Assembly (NCBI GenBank): GCA_903885855.1
Contig: CAISKG010000486.1
Coordinates: forward strand, 1-35,043
Source of the DNA: an uncultured Planctomycetaceae bacterium
GTDB taxonomy: Bacteria; Planctomycetota; Planctomycetia; Pirellulales; UBA1268
Direction: 5' to 3'
DNA length: 35,043 nucleotides
Part shown: positions 12,284 to 18,923 of the stretch, one piece after another
How positions within the stretch are numbered: position 1 is the stretch's first letter
Layout of the letters: every line of letters begins with the position of its first letter
Notes under the pieces: generated by a model
Seen by the model: the letters and a program-made list of their open reading frames with translations, nothing else
Database searches by the model: none
What the model was told of the DNA's origin: nothing
Made by a program: the position numbers and the translations under genes

Positions 12284-13621
12284 ATGATGGCGTTCATGAG
12301 CACCACCACTTCCCCGTTCGTGGCCCGCGTGGCCCTCTGGTCCGTCGCCCTCGCCGGCTGCCTCGCCGCCGCCGCGCCCGCCGCCCGGGCCGACGAGCCG
12401 GCGGCGCTGGTGCTGCCCGACACCGACGACGGCCTTCCCGGCGTCGGCCCGATCCGGCGCTACGACTGGTTCAGGAACCTGTGGAAGGAACGCCGCGGGG
12501 CGTGGGCCGGGCGGAAAGCCGCCGATGCGCGGGCGCTGGTGTTCCTCGGCGACTCGATCACGCAGGGCTTCGGCGATGACTTCAAAAACGCCTTCCCCGG
12601 CGCCAAGCTCGCCAACCGCGGCATCAGCGGCGACACCACCCGCGGCATGCTCCTCAGGCTCGCCGACGACGTGCTGGCCCTCGACCCCGCCGGCGTGGTG
12701 ATGCTCATGGGCACCAACGACCTGGAGGAGGGGGCGGCGCCGGAGGCCATCGCCGCCAACGTGAAGGCGATCGTCGCGGCGATCGAGGCCAAGAACCCGC
12801 GCACGCCGATCGTCCTCTGCCAGGTCTTCCCCAGCGCCGCGGAGAAGCAGCGGCCCGCCGAGAAGATCAAGGAGGTCAACCGCCTCGTCGCCGAGGGCGT
12901 GAAGGGGGATCCGCGCGTCCGCCTGATCGACACCTGGACGCTGTTCGCCGACGCGAAGGGCGACGCCAAGCCGGAGGAATTCCCCGATCTCCTCCATCCC
13001 AACGACGCCGGCTACGCCAGATGGGCCGCCGCCATCCGGCCCGTCCTCGAGACGCTCGAGCTCGTGCCCGCGCCGGTCGACGACTTCCAGTGCGAGCCCG
13101 GCTTCGAGATGCTCTTCAACGGCCGCGACCTCACCGGCTGGGGCTACCGGGACCAGCCCACGCTCGGGCGGCAGCTCGATCTCGACGGCCGCACCTCGAG
13201 CCCCGACGGCCGCTACATCGTCCGGCACGGCCGGATCGTCGTCACCACGCCCCCCGAGGGACGGCGCGTGGAGCAGCTGTGGACGACGCGGGAGCTGACC
13301 GGCAACTTCATCCTCAAGCTCGAGTTCCGCGCCACTCCCACCGCCGACAGCGGCGTCTTCATCCGCGCCCCGCAGCTGCAGTGCCGCGACTACCTCCTCG
13401 CCGGCCCGTACAAGGAGCTCAAGCACTACAAGCCGCAGGACTGGAACGAGCTCATCGTCACCGTCATCGACGGGAAGGCGATGTGCCGCTGCCACGACGA
13501 GATCCTCGAGGTGGCGTTGCCGGTGCCGGCGAGCGGCCCGATCGGTCTGGAGGGCGACTCGGGGCAACTCGAATACCGGCGCATCCGAATCGCGAAGGTG
13601 CCCCCGGTGTCCGGGGAATAA
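12284..13621 (+). CDS. Secreted SGNH/GDSL hydrolase fused to a DUF1080 (3-keto-disaccharide hydrolase-like) domain, 445 aa
   Basis: Signal peptide MMAFMSTTTSPFVARVALWSVALAGCLAAAAPAARA; FLGDSITQGF, GTNDLEEG, DLLHPNDAGY; then FEMLFNGRDLTGWGY...GNFILKLEFRATPTADSGVFIR...DWNELIVTVIDGKAMC. Alternative start at 12296. Confidence 0.88.
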   Translation: MMAFMSTTTSPFVARVALWSVALAGCLAAAAPAARADEPAALVLPDTDDGLPGVGPIRRYDWFRNLWKERRGAWAGRKAADARALVFLGDSITQGFGDDFKNAFPGAKLANRGISGDTTRGMLLRLADDVLALDPAGVVMLMGTNDLEEGAAPEAIAANVKAIVAAIEAKNPRTPIVLCQVFPSAAEKQRPAEKIKEVNRLVAEGVKGDPRVRLIDTWTLFADAKGDAKPEEFPDLLHPNDAGYARWAAAIRPVLETLELVPAPVDDFQCEPGFEMLFNGRDLTGWGYRDQPTLGRQLDLDGRTSSPDGRYIVRHGRIVVTTPPEGRRVEQLWTTRELTGNFILKLEFRATPTADSGVFIRAPQLQCRDYLLAGPYKELKHYKPQDWNELIVTVIDGKAMCRCHDEILEVALPVPASGPIGLEGDSGQLEYRRIRIAKVPPVSGE

Positions 13622-13646
13622 GTCGTCCATGGCCCACCGGCCGCGT
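13620..13646 (+). repeat. Copy A of a ~28-nt 3'-end element (aagtcgtccatggcccaccggccgcgt)
   Basis: Near-identical to 18831-18858; begins at the TAA stop of the SGNH-DUF1080 gene. Confidence 0.75.
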
Positions 13647-13654
13647 CAGGCCGG
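13637..13654. terminator. Short inverted repeat between convergent genes, possible bidirectional terminator
   Basis: ccggcc-gcgtca-ggccgg; no T-tract; overlaps the stop codon of the minus-strand kinase gene. Confidence 0.3.
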
Positions 13655-14596
13655 CTCGATCGTCACCCCGTCCGCGAGGCGCGCCACCGCCGCTCCGTCG
13701 AGCCTCCCGGCCAGCGGCAGGCGGCAGTTGTCGGCGGCGCAGGCGAAGCCCAGGCGCACCGCGTCGAGCGGCCCCGCGCCGCCCGCCGTGGCGGCGGCGA
13801 ATCCCGCCGCCAGGCAGTCGCCGCAGCCGATCGGATTCACGATCCGCTCCGGCCGCGGCGGCCGGACACGGAATCGCCCCCCGGCCCCGACCAGGAGCGC
13901 CGGCCGGGCGCCGTCGGTGACGAGCACCCACGCCGCGCCGCGTCGGTGGAGCCCCTCCATCGCCGCGAACGCGTCGCCGTCGTCCTCGAGCGCGCACCGT
14001 GCGGTCGTGGCGAGCTCCGCCCGGTTGGGCTTCACGAGCCGGGGTCGCGCGGGGAGCGCCTCGAGCAGCTCGGGCCCGCGGGCGTCGAGGATCGCCGGGC
14101 AGGGGGTGCGCTCGAGGAGCTCGCGGTAGAGCGTGGCGGGGGTGCCGGCCGGGAGCGATCCGGAGAGCACCACCGCGGCGGCCCCGGCGACGGCGCGGCC
14201 GTAGGCCTCGACGAAGGCGGCGAGCTCGTCGGCGCCGATCGCGCCGGCGTTCTCCACCAGCTCGGTCGTACGGCCCCCCTCGCCCTCGAGGAGCGTGGTG
14301 CAGGTGCGCGTCCGGCCGCGCGTGGGCACGGCGTCGAGCCCGATCCCCAAGCCCGCCATCTCGGCTGCGGTCGCCGCGGCGGGAGCCCCCCCGAGGACCG
14401 TCACCGCCCGCGTCGGACACCCCAGGTGCGCGAGCGCCACCGCGACGTTGACCACCTTCCCGCTCGCGCAGTGCCAGGTCTCCTCCGCCCGGTTCACCTC
14501 TCCGGCCGCCAGCGCCGCGAAGCGCATGATGATCTGCCAGGCCGGGGAGAGGCCGGCGGCGACGACCGGGCCGGCGGGAAGCGGGAGGGCTGGCAT
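13646..14596 (-). CDS. PfkB-family hexose kinase (1-phosphofructokinase/tagatose-6-phosphate kinase-like), 316 aa
   Basis: Start ATG 14596; GKVVNVAVALAHLG, VVLSGSLPAGTPATLYRELLE, LVKPNRAELA, NPIGCGDCLAAGFAAA. Confidence 0.88.
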   Translation of the reverse strand: MPALPLPAGPVVAAGLSPAWQIIMRFAALAAGEVNRAEETWHCASGKVVNVAVALAHLGCPTRAVTVLGGAPAAATAAEMAGLGIGLDAVPTRGRTRTCTTLLEGEGGRTTELVENAGAIGADELAAFVEAYGRAVAGAAAVVLSGSLPAGTPATLYRELLERTPCPAILDARGPELLEALPARPRLVKPNRAELATTARCALEDDGDAFAAMEGLHRRGAAWVLVTDGARPALLVGAGGRFRVRPPRPERIVNPIGCGDCLAAGFAAATAGGAGPLDAVRLGFACAADNCRLPLAGRLDGAAVARLADGVTIEPA

Positions 14597-14608
14597 GGGA
14601 CGCCGCGG

Positions 14609-14638
14609 TTGGTGACGGGGGAGGGAAGCGAATAGTGT
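14609..14638 (+). promoter_or_regulatory. Weak candidate promoter upstream of the 1381-aa CDS
   Basis: TTGGTG-N18-TAGTGT in the divergent intergenic region. Confidence 0.25.
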
Positions 14639-14672
14639 AAGGACGTCCGCCACGAGCCTCCGGGGATCCCCC

Positions 14673-17600
14673 ATGCCCGACGTCCGCCGCGTCGCCGCGA
14701 TCCTCGCGGCCCTCCACGGCCTGCCGGCCGCGCTCCCCGTGCGCGGCGACGATCCGCTCCCGCCCGGCGTGATCGTCCACCTCGACGCCGGCGACGCCGC
14801 CCCGGGCGCGGTCGACGGGCTCGTCGACCGCGCCGCGGCCGGCCGCCGCTTCGCGCAGCCCGTCGAGGGGGCACGGCCCGCCGCCGTGCGCGTCGGCGAC
14901 GCCACGGTGCTCCGCTTCGACGGCGTCGACGACCACCTGCGTGCCACCGGCACGGGCCTCGCCGCCGGGTCGCTCTCGCTCTTCGTCGTCGCCGCGCCGC
15001 ACGCCAATCCGGGGGATTTCCGCGGCTTCTTCGCCGCCAACGCCCCGGGGCGGCGCGACTACGAGTCGGGCTTCACCCTCGATCTCGGCCCCGGCCCCAC
15101 GCGCGCCTTCGATCAGGTCAACGTCGAGGGGGCGGGCTTCGGCGGGGCCCGCGATCTCGCCGGCTCGTCGGCTCCCTTCGGCACGCTCCACGTCCTCGAG
15201 GCGGTGGTGGACGGCGCCGCGGGGGAGGTGCGGCTGGCGATCGACGGCGTGCCCGAGGGGACGCGCCCCCTCGCCGCCGGGCCGGTGGCGCTCGACGAAT
15301 TGACCCTCGGGGCCCGCTACTACACCAACGGCCCCGGCGCCCAGCAGGTGCGCGGCGGCCTGCGCGGCGACGTCGCCGAGGTGATCCTCTTCGACCGCGT
15401 CCTCGACGCGGAGGAAACGCTGGCCGTGCGCCGCCGGCTCGCCGCCAGGCACGCGGCCCTCGGCGCGGCGCTGCCCGCCTCGCTCCCCCCGCCCCCGGGC
15501 GGCGGCGTGCCGCTCGAGCTCGTCGCCGATCCCCCGGCGATCCAAATGCTCGTGCCGGGCTTCGAGGTGCGCGAGCTGCCCGTGAGCCTCGCCAACGTCA
15601 ACAACGTGCGCTTCCGCGCCGACGGCACCCTCGTGACCCTCGGCTACGGGGGCGACATCCACCTCCTCCGCGACACCGACGGCGACGGCCTCGAGGACAG
15701 CGCGCGACGCTGGTACCACAACCAGGGCAGTCTCCGCGGCCCCATCGGCCTCCTCCTCACGCCGCCGGGGTACGAGCACGGCGACGGGATGTTCGTCGCC
15801 TCCAAGGGGAAGGTGTCGCTGTTGCTCGACCGCGACGGCGACGAAGCCGCCGACCACGAGCGCGTGGTGGCCGACGGCTGGCGGGAGATCGCCCAGAACG
15901 TCGACGCCACGGGATTGGCGATGGGCGCTGACGGCAGCCTGTACTTCGCCCTCGACGTGGCCGACTTCGCCAACGCCTACCTCCTCGACGCCGAGGGCCG
16001 GGCCCGCTACGACGTCCGCGACGAACGCGGCACGATCCAGCGCATCCTCCCCGACCTCTCCCGGCGCGAGACGGTCTGCACCGGGATGCGCTTCCCGATC
16101 GCGCTGGCCTTCAACGACCGGGGAGACCTGTTCTGCACCGAGCAGGAGGGGGCGACGTGGCTTCCCAACGGCAACCCCTTCGACGAACTGCTCCACGTGC
16201 GGCTCGACGGCACGGCCCCGCGCGCCAACGTCACCGGCATGCGGCACTTCGGCTTCCCGCCGCGCCACCCCGTCCACAATCCCGGCGTCATCGACGAGCC
16301 CTCAACCTTCGACTACGGCCCGCAGCACCAGTCGACCTGCGGCATGGTCTTCAATCCCGGCGTCGCCGCCGGCCGGCCGTTCGGGCCGCCGTCGTGGGCC
16401 GGCGACGCGATCGTCTGCGGCGAGTCGCGCGGGAAGCTGTGGCGGACGACGCTCGTGCCCACGCGCGAGGGCTACGTGGCCGACAGCCGGCTCATCGCCT
16501 GCCTGCAGATGCTCACCGTCGACGCCGCCGTGGCGCCCGACGGCGACCTCGTGGTGGCCTGCCATTCCGGCCCGCCCGATTGGGGCACCGGCCCCGCCGG
16601 CATCGGCCGGCTGTTCCGGATCTCGGCGCGGCGCCACCCCACCCCGCGCCCCGTCGCCGCCTGGGCCGAGGGGCCGGGCGAGATCCGCATCGCCTTCGAT
16701 CGCCCGGTCGATCCGTCGGCCCTCTCCGGGCTCGCCGCGGGCACGGTCGTGGAGTACGGCGCGAGTGTCCGCGCCGGCGACCGCTTCGAGACCCTCGAGC
16801 CCTCCTACGCGGTCGTCCAGGCGCAGAAGCTGGCCCCGCGCCACCGCCTCGCCGTGGCCTCGGCGGCGCTGACCGCCGACCGGCGCACCGTGGTCCTGGG
16901 CACCGCGGGGATCCCCGGGCGCACGCACCTGGCGGTGTCGCTCCCCTTCGCCGAGACCGACGGCGGCGAGGCCGATCGGCCCGGCGCCCTGCCCCGACAC
17001 GCGACGATCGACGTCGATGCCTCGACCGACGGCGTGACGGCGGCGTGGGTGCCGGCGGCCGACGCCGACGGGGGACCGGGACCGCGGGCGGGGTCGATCG
17101 CCGGCTGGCTTCCCCACCTCGATCTGGCCGTATCGCGCCGGCTCACGCTCGGCTCGGCGGGCCACGACGAGCTGTGGGAGCGGCTGCGCGGCCCGGGCCG
17201 GCTCGAACTCGCCACCCGGATCGACGCCACGCACCTGCTGCGCCCCGCCGTCCAACCGGGCAGCACCCTCGACCACCAGTGGCCCCCCGAGACGGCGACG
17301 ATCACGATCCGCGCGGATGGCGCGCTCGACGTGGCGGCGGCGGTGTCGGCCCGGCCGCTCGACGTGGCGGTCACGCGCGACGCGGCCGGCGACACGCTCG
17401 CCACCCTCACGCTCCCCCCCGGGTCGACCGAGCCGGTCGATGTGCGCCTGTCGCTGCCGACCGGCGGCCCGCGCCCGCCGCGCCTCGAGGTGGCCTTCCA
17501 CACCGACGAGGACGGCACGTTGCGGCCGCTGCCGCTCTCGCGCTTCATCCTTCCCTGGGCCTCCGCCGCCGCGGCCGATCCCCTCGCCGCCGCGCCGCGC

Positions 17601-18818
17601 CGCATCCCCGAGCTCGAGGGCGGCAGCTGGGGCCGCGGGCGGCGCGTGTTCCTCTCCGAGGCGGCCGGCTGCTCGAAGTGCCATGCGATCGGGGGCGGCG
17701 GGCCGGCGATCGGCCCCGATCTCGGCAATCTCGTCCACCGCGACCTCGCCGGCGTGACGCGCGACATCCGCCACCCCTCCTTCGCCATCAATCCCGACTT
17801 CACCACGCACGTCGTCCGGCTCGCCGACGGCCGCGTGCTCACCGGGGTGTTGCAGTCGCGTGACGGGAAGCTCCTCCTCGGCGACACCGAGGGACGCTGG
17901 ACGGAGCTCGATCGCGGGGCCATCGAGGGCGTCGAGCCGTCCCCCGTGTCGGTGATGCCGCAGGGCCTCCTCGACAAGCTCACGCCCGACGACGTGCGCG
18001 ACCTCCTCGCCTACCTCCTCCTCCCGGCCCCGGCGATGCCGCTGGAGTCGCCGCTCGACGCCCCGCCGGTGCGGTCGCGGGCGGAGGTCGCCGCGGCGCT
18101 CGCCGGCAGCGCGGGGGTGACGGCGCCGCGGCCGCTGTCGGTGGTGCTCGTCGACGGTGCCAAGGACCACGGCCCCGGCGAGCACGACTACCCGGCGTGG
18201 CGCGAGCGCTGGGTGCAGCTGCTGGCGGCGGCGGAGAACGTGCGCGTGGAGCCGGCGCGGGAGTTCCCCTCGGAGGAGCAGCTCGCCGCCGCCGACGTGC
18301 TCGTGTTCTTCCAGCGCGGCAGCTTCGGCCAGCGTCGCCCCGAGGCGCTCGACGCCTTCCTCGCCCGCGGCGGCGGGGCCGTCTACATCCACTGGGCGGT
18401 CGACGGCCGCGACCGCGCCGGGGACTTCGCCCGCCGCATCGGCCTGGCCGCCGAGGGCGGGGCGATCGCCTTCCGCCACGGTCCGCTCGAGCTGGCCTTC
18501 CCCGAGCGCGACCACCCGATCGTGCGCAACTTCGCCGGCCTCGCGCTCCACGACGAGAGCTACTGGCGGCTCACCGGCGACACCGCCGGGATCACGGTCC
18601 TGGCGACGAGCACCGAGGAGGGGACGCCGACCCCGCAGCTGTGGGTCAAGGAGGAGGGGGCGGGGCGCGTCTTCGTGAGCATCCCCGGGCACTACAGCTG
18701 GACGTTCGACGACCCGCTGTTCCGGATCCTGCTGCTGCGGGGCATCGCCTGGGCGGCCCACGAGCCGGTCGACCGCTTCAACGACCTGGTCACACCGGGC
18801 GCGCGCCTCGGCCGCTAG
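14673..18818 (+). CDS. Multidomain secreted protein: LamG-like + PVC-type membrane-bound dehydrogenase/cytochrome c (CxxCH) + ThuA-like domain, 1381 aa
   Basis: N-terminal LamG-like region; NVNNVRFRADGTLVTLGYGGDIHLLRDTDGDGLED beta-propeller; heme site AAGCSKCHAIGGGGPAIGPDL; C-terminal LSVVLVDGAKDHGPGEHDYPAW...GRVFVSIPGHYSWTFDDPLFRILLLRGIAWAA (ThuA-like). Confidence 0.85.
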   Translation: MPDVRRVAAILAALHGLPAALPVRGDDPLPPGVIVHLDAGDAAPGAVDGLVDRAAAGRRFAQPVEGARPAAVRVGDATVLRFDGVDDHLRATGTGLAAGSLSLFVVAAPHANPGDFRGFFAANAPGRRDYESGFTLDLGPGPTRAFDQVNVEGAGFGGARDLAGSSAPFGTLHVLEAVVDGAAGEVRLAIDGVPEGTRPLAAGPVALDELTLGARYYTNGPGAQQVRGGLRGDVAEVILFDRVLDAEETLAVRRRLAARHAALGAALPASLPPPPGGGVPLELVADPPAIQMLVPGFEVRELPVSLANVNNVRFRADGTLVTLGYGGDIHLLRDTDGDGLEDSARRWYHNQGSLRGPIGLLLTPPGYEHGDGMFVASKGKVSLLLDRDGDEAADHERVVADGWREIAQNVDATGLAMGADGSLYFALDVADFANAYLLDAEGRARYDVRDERGTIQRILPDLSRRETVCTGMRFPIALAFNDRGDLFCTEQEGATWLPNGNPFDELLHVRLDGTAPRANVTGMRHFGFPPRHPVHNPGVIDEPSTFDYGPQHQSTCGMVFNPGVAAGRPFGPPSWAGDAIVCGESRGKLWRTTLVPTREGYVADSRLIACLQMLTVDAAVAPDGDLVVACHSGPPDWGTGPAGIGRLFRISARRHPTPRPVAAWAEGPGEIRIAFDRPVDPSALSGLAAGTVVEYGASVRAGDRFETLEPSYAVVQAQKLAPRHRLAVASAALTADRRTVVLGTAGIPGRTHLAVSLPFAETDGGEADRPGALPRHATIDVDASTDGVTAAWVPAADADGGPGPRAGSIAGWLPHLDLAVSRRLTLGSAGHDELWERLRGPGRLELATRIDATHLLRPAVQPGSTLDHQWPPETATITIRADGALDVAAAVSARPLDVAVTRDAAGDTLATLTLPPGSTEPVDVRLSLPTGGPRPPRLEVAFHTDEDGTLRPLPLSRFILPWASAAAADPLAAAPRRIPELEGGSWGRGRRVFLSEAAGCSKCHAIGGGGPAIGPDLGNLVHRDLAGVTRDIRHPSFAINPDFTTHVVRLADGRVLTGVLQSRDGKLLLGDTEGRWTELDRGAIEGVEPSPVSVMPQGLLDKLTPDDVRDLLAYLLLPAPAMPLESPLDAPPVRSRAEVAAALAGSAGVTAPRPLSVVLVDGAKDHGPGEHDYPAWRERWVQLLAAAENVRVEPAREFPSEEQLAAADVLVFFQRGSFGQRRPEALDAFLARGGGAVYIHWAVDGRDRAGDFARRIGLAAEGGAIAFRHGPLELAFPERDHPIVRNFAGLALHDESYWRLTGDTAGITVLATSTEEGTPTPQLWVKEEGAGRVFVSIPGHYSWTFDDPLFRILLLRGIAWAAHEPVDRFNDLVTPGARLGR

Positions 18819-18830
18819 GGGAAGGTGGAA

Positions 18831-18858
18831 AAGTCATCCATGCCCCCACCGGCCGCGT
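18831..18858 (+). repeat. Copy B of a ~28-nt 3'-end element (aagtcatccatgcccccaccggccgcgt)
   Basis: Near-identical to 13620-13646; 12 nt after the TAG stop of the 1381-aa CDS. Confidence 0.75.
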
Positions 18859-18862
18859 GCCA

Positions 18863-18880
18863 GCCGCCGCATCCGGCGGC
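18863..18880. terminator. Inverted repeat (7-bp stem, 4-nt loop) downstream of the 1381-aa CDS
   Basis: gccgccg-catc-cggcggc; GC hairpin without a T-tract. Confidence 0.35.
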
Positions 18881-18923
18881 GGATCGGTGTGTCGACAGCG
18901 TGCCAGGGGGCCGCGGCCCGCCG

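Follow-up and report, generated by a model that had tools for sequence, protein, structure and literature searches.

Two similar stretches of about 28 nucleotides in the window (the whole stretch of DNA analysed, 35,043 nucleotides long) are each one end of a dispersed repeat and not a stand-alone 28-nucleotide motif. It is probable, at roughly 0.83, that the sequences to which they belong are decayed copies of one non-autonomous MITE/REP-like mobile element, which inserts at YTAR by means of a trans-acting transposase. Computation on the sequences reveals the repeat family, the constraint on its fold, the duplication of a tetranucleotide, the polymorphism of its sites, and its abutment to stop codons.

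Anatomy, fold, and distribution of the repeat

The two stretches lie at 13620-13646 and 18831-18858, as the initial annotation placed them, and both occupy gaps between convergent genes. The nearby stop codons are TAA at 13619-13621, which overlaps the first stretch, and TAG at 18816-18818, which ends 12 nt before the second. The genes that they terminate encode a 445-aa protein with GDSL lipase and 3-keto-disaccharide hydrolase domains (12284-13621) and a 1381-aa protein with ThuA, DUF7133, and LamG domains (14673-18818). The inverted repeats described beside the stretches are also present, as CCGGCC..GGCCGG at 13637-13654 and CCGCCG-CATC-CGGCGG at 18864-18879. GC bias alone had been judged unlikely to give such a match, and this is borne out, as AAGTCRTCCATG with at most one mismatch matches exactly twice in the window against a mean of 0.09 in shuffles, none of 100 of which reached two. 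By itself, the second half, CCCACCGGCCGCGT, does not reach significance in the window when two mismatches are allowed; thus, the joint match of both halves carries the weight.

Across the genome (4.37 Mb in 646 contigs, with the window as contig C486), AAGTCRTCCATG occurs exactly at 35 sites, and the longer consensus of the initial annotation, searched with a flexible gap, matches three times, against none for a reversed-pattern control. A covariance model, R1, was built from the copies and its matches listed down to 25 bits; it places the repeat at about 75 separate positions in this genome (>=25 bits), the weakest being uncertain. Further copies, on which the initial annotation made its case depend, therefore exist. 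A chance likeness of GC-rich sequence, or a convergence of simple hairpins, would fit the insignificance of the GC-rich half by itself, but these genome-wide pattern and model match counts already refute it, leaving it a negligible probability.

Alignment of the copies places the 28 nucleotides within a much longer repeat, the main form of which is about 127 nt and reads CTAG-CTGTCCGTGGAAAAAGTCATCCATGACCTTTTTCCACGTGTGGGCACCCTGAAAAAGCCGAGGTTTTTCACGGGTGCCTGCCGCCGCATCCGGCGGCGGATCACTTTGTCCACAGCCTG-CTAG. This element is short, non-coding, multi-copy, and dispersed, with imperfect terminal inverted repeats, three hairpins, and a CTAG-type tetranucleotide at each edge. The terminal inverted repeats, CTGTCCGTGGAAAAAGTCATCC and CAGGCTGTGGACAAAGTGATCC, are about 20 nt long and gapped, and do not match cleanly. 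Subfamily B, of about 155 nt, carries in hairpin 1 an insert of about 26 nt containing CCCACCGGCCGCGTGCC. Its members include both window copies and one at C452:8248, which is why the match first noticed ran beyond the general core. A further subfamily (L158, L126, L145, and similar loci) has the same ends and hairpin 1 with a largely different interior; L158, which was read along its whole length, again has palindromes there that can form hairpins. When right ends were searched for lone occurrences, 28 of the 29 matches were known copies, and the remaining one, in C167, turned out to be a left end standing by itself at the stop of a gene. Some copies form head-to-tail pairs with one common CTAG, and many lie at contig ends, which helps explain why planctomycete MAG assemblies are fragmented. 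In other genomes, most copies (e.g., L247-L282) have CTTTATCCACAG as their right end; it includes TTATCCACA, the exact sequence of the classical DnaA box, where copies in this genome mostly show TTGTCCACA or TGTGTCCACA. Separately, a segment of ~3.7 kb is inverted between two genomes beside element copies (L133 vs. L124), possibly through recombination at the repeat.

The element folds into its three hairpins with z = -8.6 as single-stranded DNA. In an alignment of 111 distinct copies to the model, standard pairs make up 92.5% of pair cells and double changes occur in 28 of 32 pairs, while sliding the partner by 1-3 columns as a control lowers pairing to 42-57%. This alignment was fitted to the model and is hence biased towards structure. 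For this reason 34 diverse copies were aligned independently with MAFFT and then folded, and compensatory changes appear in 18 of 29 predicted pairs. Compensatory change thus maintains the structure and not only the sequence. A search of Rfam with three loci holding full copies gave no match on the element at the gathering score, only a neighbouring tRNA reaching the cut-off.

All 11 same-genus relatives carry the element (27-75 model matches per genome), as do 12 of 13 further genomes from the family (2-84 matches each); these counts include matches on both strands to some copies. Of 15 genomes representing 15 other families in the order, one gave a single weak match and the rest none. The element is essentially confined to one planctomycete family. 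Most carriers that have names are public planctomycete bins, and several of these are labelled as isolates with lake names. The repeat is also present in public MAGs under the titles Candidatus Kuenenia stuttgartiensis or Verrucomicrobia (L093, L096, L134), which look like wrong titles or mixed bins. No description of the repeat in planctomycetes was found in the open-access literature.

Target duplication and placement at gene ends

The tetranucleotides flanking the element, of CTAG, CTAA, or TTAG type, behave like a duplicated 4-bp target. In 118 full copies, the left one agrees with the right one at position 1 in 103 cases against 94 in shuffles (p 2e-4), and at position 4 in 94 against 66, a value that none of 5000 shuffles reached. 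Eleven left/right pairs in the same set are identical without being CTAG, for example CTAA/CTAA, CTGT/CTGT, and TTAG/TTAG. Between the two sides, the TA core covaries only weakly; we ascribe this to decay of the CTAG sites, since that tetranucleotide is under strong avoidance in this genome. One clean empty site is available, in which L158 reads CCCC-CTAA-element-CTAA-CCCGTCC where L149 reads CCCC-CTGA-AACCCCGTCC, with substitutions and small indels around the junction. In addition, for three gene ends that bear the element, orthologs in up to nine same-genus genomes are without it, though those genomes hold dozens of copies elsewhere. A presence/absence comparison of L041 with L128 was set aside because the loci are too diverged.

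Gene ends, as called by a simple codon-usage gene caller, often coincide exactly with the element's edges, in keeping with the association proposed in the initial annotation. Of 71 copies in this genome, 28 have the left edge exactly at a plus-strand stop and 14 have the right edge exactly at a minus-strand stop, so that 42 element ends fall exactly on stops; no copy lies within any called gene. Exact abutment was also found in genome G016 (7 left and 3 right edges, 44 copies) and in a mixed set from other genomes (11 left and 8 right, 66 copies). Pooled over 181 copies, this gives 46 left and 25 right ends exactly at a stop, a mild orientation preference (46:25, p = 0.017). The rarity of the target bears on this placement. 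In 266 kb sampled from this genome, CTAG was observed 62 times against 623 expected by composition, about a tenth, and it occurs twice in the 35 kb of the window. Of the 62, 49 lie in or beside the repeat and 13 outside elements, 6 of these 13 being gene stop codons. The share of copies at stops is close to this CTAG background in this genome and in G016, and exceeds it in the mixed-genome set (19/66 vs. 6/87). Placement at stop codons thus follows largely from the target CTAG itself often being a stop codon, and purging of insertions within genes would add to it.

Copy 1 is a truncated left end on the plus strand (13603-13646), comprising the ancestral stop position, the terminal repeat, the first arm of hairpin 1, and the start of the subfamily-B insert. 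The remainder is deleted up to the stop codon of a convergent pfkB-type kinase gene (minus strand, 13646-13648), which adjoins the remnant. In relatives that have the same convergent neighbour, the upstream gene ends with AAGCTTCCCTGA (...CTT-CCC-TGA), whereas the gene end in the window reads AAGGTGCCCCCGGTGTCC..., that is, GTG-CCC-CCG-GTG-TCC-GGG-GAA-TAA. The CCG at 13604-13606 stands where the orthologs have their stop TGA, which corresponds to model positions 4-6, the place at which the element abuts the stop in other copies. The following segment (13607-13621) is an element-derived gene end in which the TAA arose inside the element and which, with the decayed stop, adds P-V-S-G-E. Since model positions 4-6 are exactly where the stop was lost, and the gene now stops within the element, the insertion and its subsequent decay account for these five codons and for the new stop.

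Copy 2 (plus strand, 18813-18909; covariance model match of 48.6 bits, E 1.7e-13) belongs to subfamily B and has an internal deletion. The TAG of its left CTAG (18815-18818), one of the two in the window, is the stop codon of the gene for the 1381-aa protein. The 28-nt stretch that follows comprises the hairpin-1 arm, the loop, and the start of the subfamily-B insert. GTGCC lies at the likely deletion junction (18857-18861), and intact subfamily-B copies (C351, C14) have GTGCC at both edges of the missing segment, which suggests that the deletion may have occurred through GTGCC microhomology. Hairpin 3 (18864-18879) is retained, and the right tetranucleotide, CCAG (18903-18906), is a decayed target duplicate. 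The last 86 bp of this gene (18733-18818) are repeated at 100% identity at the end of contig C14 (G000:C14:6291-6376), where an intact subfamily-B element and different downstream DNA follow; strain variation, rearrangement at the repeat, or misassembly could account for this. Elsewhere in the window, positions 1-453 hold, on the minus strand, arrays of GC-rich repeats with periods of 27, 54, and 99 bp, and these multiples of 9 nt possibly encode a collagen-like Gly-X-Y protein.

Mechanism of insertion and alternative explanations

In the proposed mechanism, a transposase acting in trans would recognise the imperfect terminal inverted repeats, make a 4-bp staggered cut at YTAR, with CTAG the best target, and join the element there. 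In these genomes CTAG is very rare and, where it does occur, often consists of C and a TAG stop codon. Insertion at such a stop would duplicate the target and leave the stop intact, so that it would be harmless and retained, while insertions inside genes would be purged. Deletions and mutations in the TA core would afterwards erode the copies; at copy 1 the original stop has been lost, leaving the gene to end within the element. The target set is similar to that listed for IS5, namely CTAG, CTAA, TTAG, and CAAG (PMC5493358), and IS701 elements make 4-bp duplications too (PMC2266710); thus, a DDE transposase acting in trans is the best-supported machinery. A non-exhaustive search of the genomes yielded no autonomous partner with matching ends among the DDE_5, DDE_Tnp_1, and DDE_3 matches. 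IS630-type DDE_3 had no match in the 12 genomes of the genus, and DDE_Tnp_1 matches were few and low-copy. A 1.44-kb IS701-like DDE_5 element was found with unrelated flanks in three genomes (G000:C459, that is L242:3-1446; G001:C27; G011:C318), and comparison of the three fixed its boundaries. It was rejected as the partner since its ends, TTCGACTTTTGCAG, are unrelated. We therefore call the repeat MITE-like without assigning it to an IS family.

Conservation of the three hairpins, weak TA-core covariation, the mild orientation bias at stops, the imperfection of the single clean empty site, and the missing partner transposase count against this explanation as a whole. Ordinary DDE transposition does not require strong hairpin conservation, which is more typical of elements moved single-stranded. 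The repeat could accordingly be of the REP/REPIN or PATE type and travel in single-stranded form with the help of a Y1 (HUH) tyrosine transposase of the IS200/IS605-RAYT kind, which would recognise the hairpins and cut beside the tetranucleotide. The strongly conserved hairpins, the tetranucleotide-specific target, the head-to-tail pairs with one common CTAG, and the presence of Y1 genes in 16 of 60 family genomes favour this, and GTAG REPs, located at gene ends, often supply the TAG stop of flanking ORFs (PMC3733652). However, at E <= 1e-6 no Y1 gene was found in this genome, nor in most of the others of its genus, and the Y1 loci found elsewhere are not flanked by the element, save for one weak match about 1 kb away. 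Y1 insertion of the IS200/IS605 kind makes no target duplication and carries the right cleavage site along, whereas the left and right tetranucleotides here covary, and we consider movement by a Y1 transposase unlikely.

A different alternative is that the repeat is a functional 3'-end element, which terminates transcription or stabilises the mRNA 3' end and is conserved because of what it does for the upstream gene. The initial annotation had proposed a genome-wide 3'-end element, and the repeat is indeed genome-wide, structured, and tied to gene ends, abutting stop codons exactly with a mild orientation bias and sparing the called genes of this genome. The analysis lends no support to a dedicated role as terminator, processing site, or protein-binding site; it points to a mobile repeat of ~127 nt with target duplications, placed largely by its target CTAG. 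Orthologous genes in relatives are without it, many copies lie away from stops, stops are reached from both ends, and the window copies have lost most of the fold. A terminator scan found one weak site in a complete copy (shuffle mean 0.3), whereas the window region gave none. The runs of T are located within the stems, and beyond this one chance-level site no GC-rich stem directly followed by a U tract, as in rho-independent terminators, was found. This function is thus quite improbable, though a secondary effect on transcripts is possible. It is also doubtful that the repeat is a new hybrid substrate for single-strand/double-strand transposition, combining 4-bp-duplicating insertion at stops with a strict three-hairpin fold, or has been recruited as a portable mRNA 3' end.

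Comparison with known mobile repeats

As a probable non-autonomous mobile element, the repeat illustrates how a compact GC-rich genome can be colonised almost harmlessly when the targeted tetranucleotide is often part of a stop codon. Insertion of this kind can alter the C-terminus of a protein, as copy 1 does by adding five residues, and a position directly behind a stop codon does not by itself make an element a terminator. MITEs of the IS5/IS701 type resemble it in their 4-bp target duplication (YTAR or 4-bp), CTAG-preferring targets, and lack of coding capacity, and less cleanly in their terminal inverted repeats, which are imperfect in the present element. Its ends, however, differ from those of every transposon found in the analysis, including the single DDE_5 (IS701-like) element of the genus, and a structurally constrained three-hairpin interior is unusual for MITEs. 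ERIC and Correia-type repeats are palindromic, ~100-150 bp long, inserted at TA-containing sites, and transcribed in 3' regions. They belong to another phylum, and the abutment of the present element to stop codons is exact.

GTAG REPs and REPINs associated with RAYT are likewise palindromic, high-copy, and intergenic, and often provide the TAG stop of their neighbours (PMC3733652). However, they are single palindromes of 20-40 bp, whereas the element spans about 127 nt with three hairpins and no GTAG tag; it has a target duplication, and no RAYT was found in this genome. The PATEs and short mobile repeats of Haloquadratum are transposase-free, the PATEs carrying palindromes and SMR-A, of ~110 bp, having prominent inverted repeats (PMC3119063). 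Insertion without target duplication, which marks IS200/IS605-derived PATEs, is at odds with the left/right covariation and the one empty site described above. SMR-A also differs from the element in having no target duplications and in mainly targeting other mobile elements, while the Haloquadratum repeats as a whole resemble it in being mobile, transposase-free, and endowed with inverted repeats or palindromes (PMC3119063).
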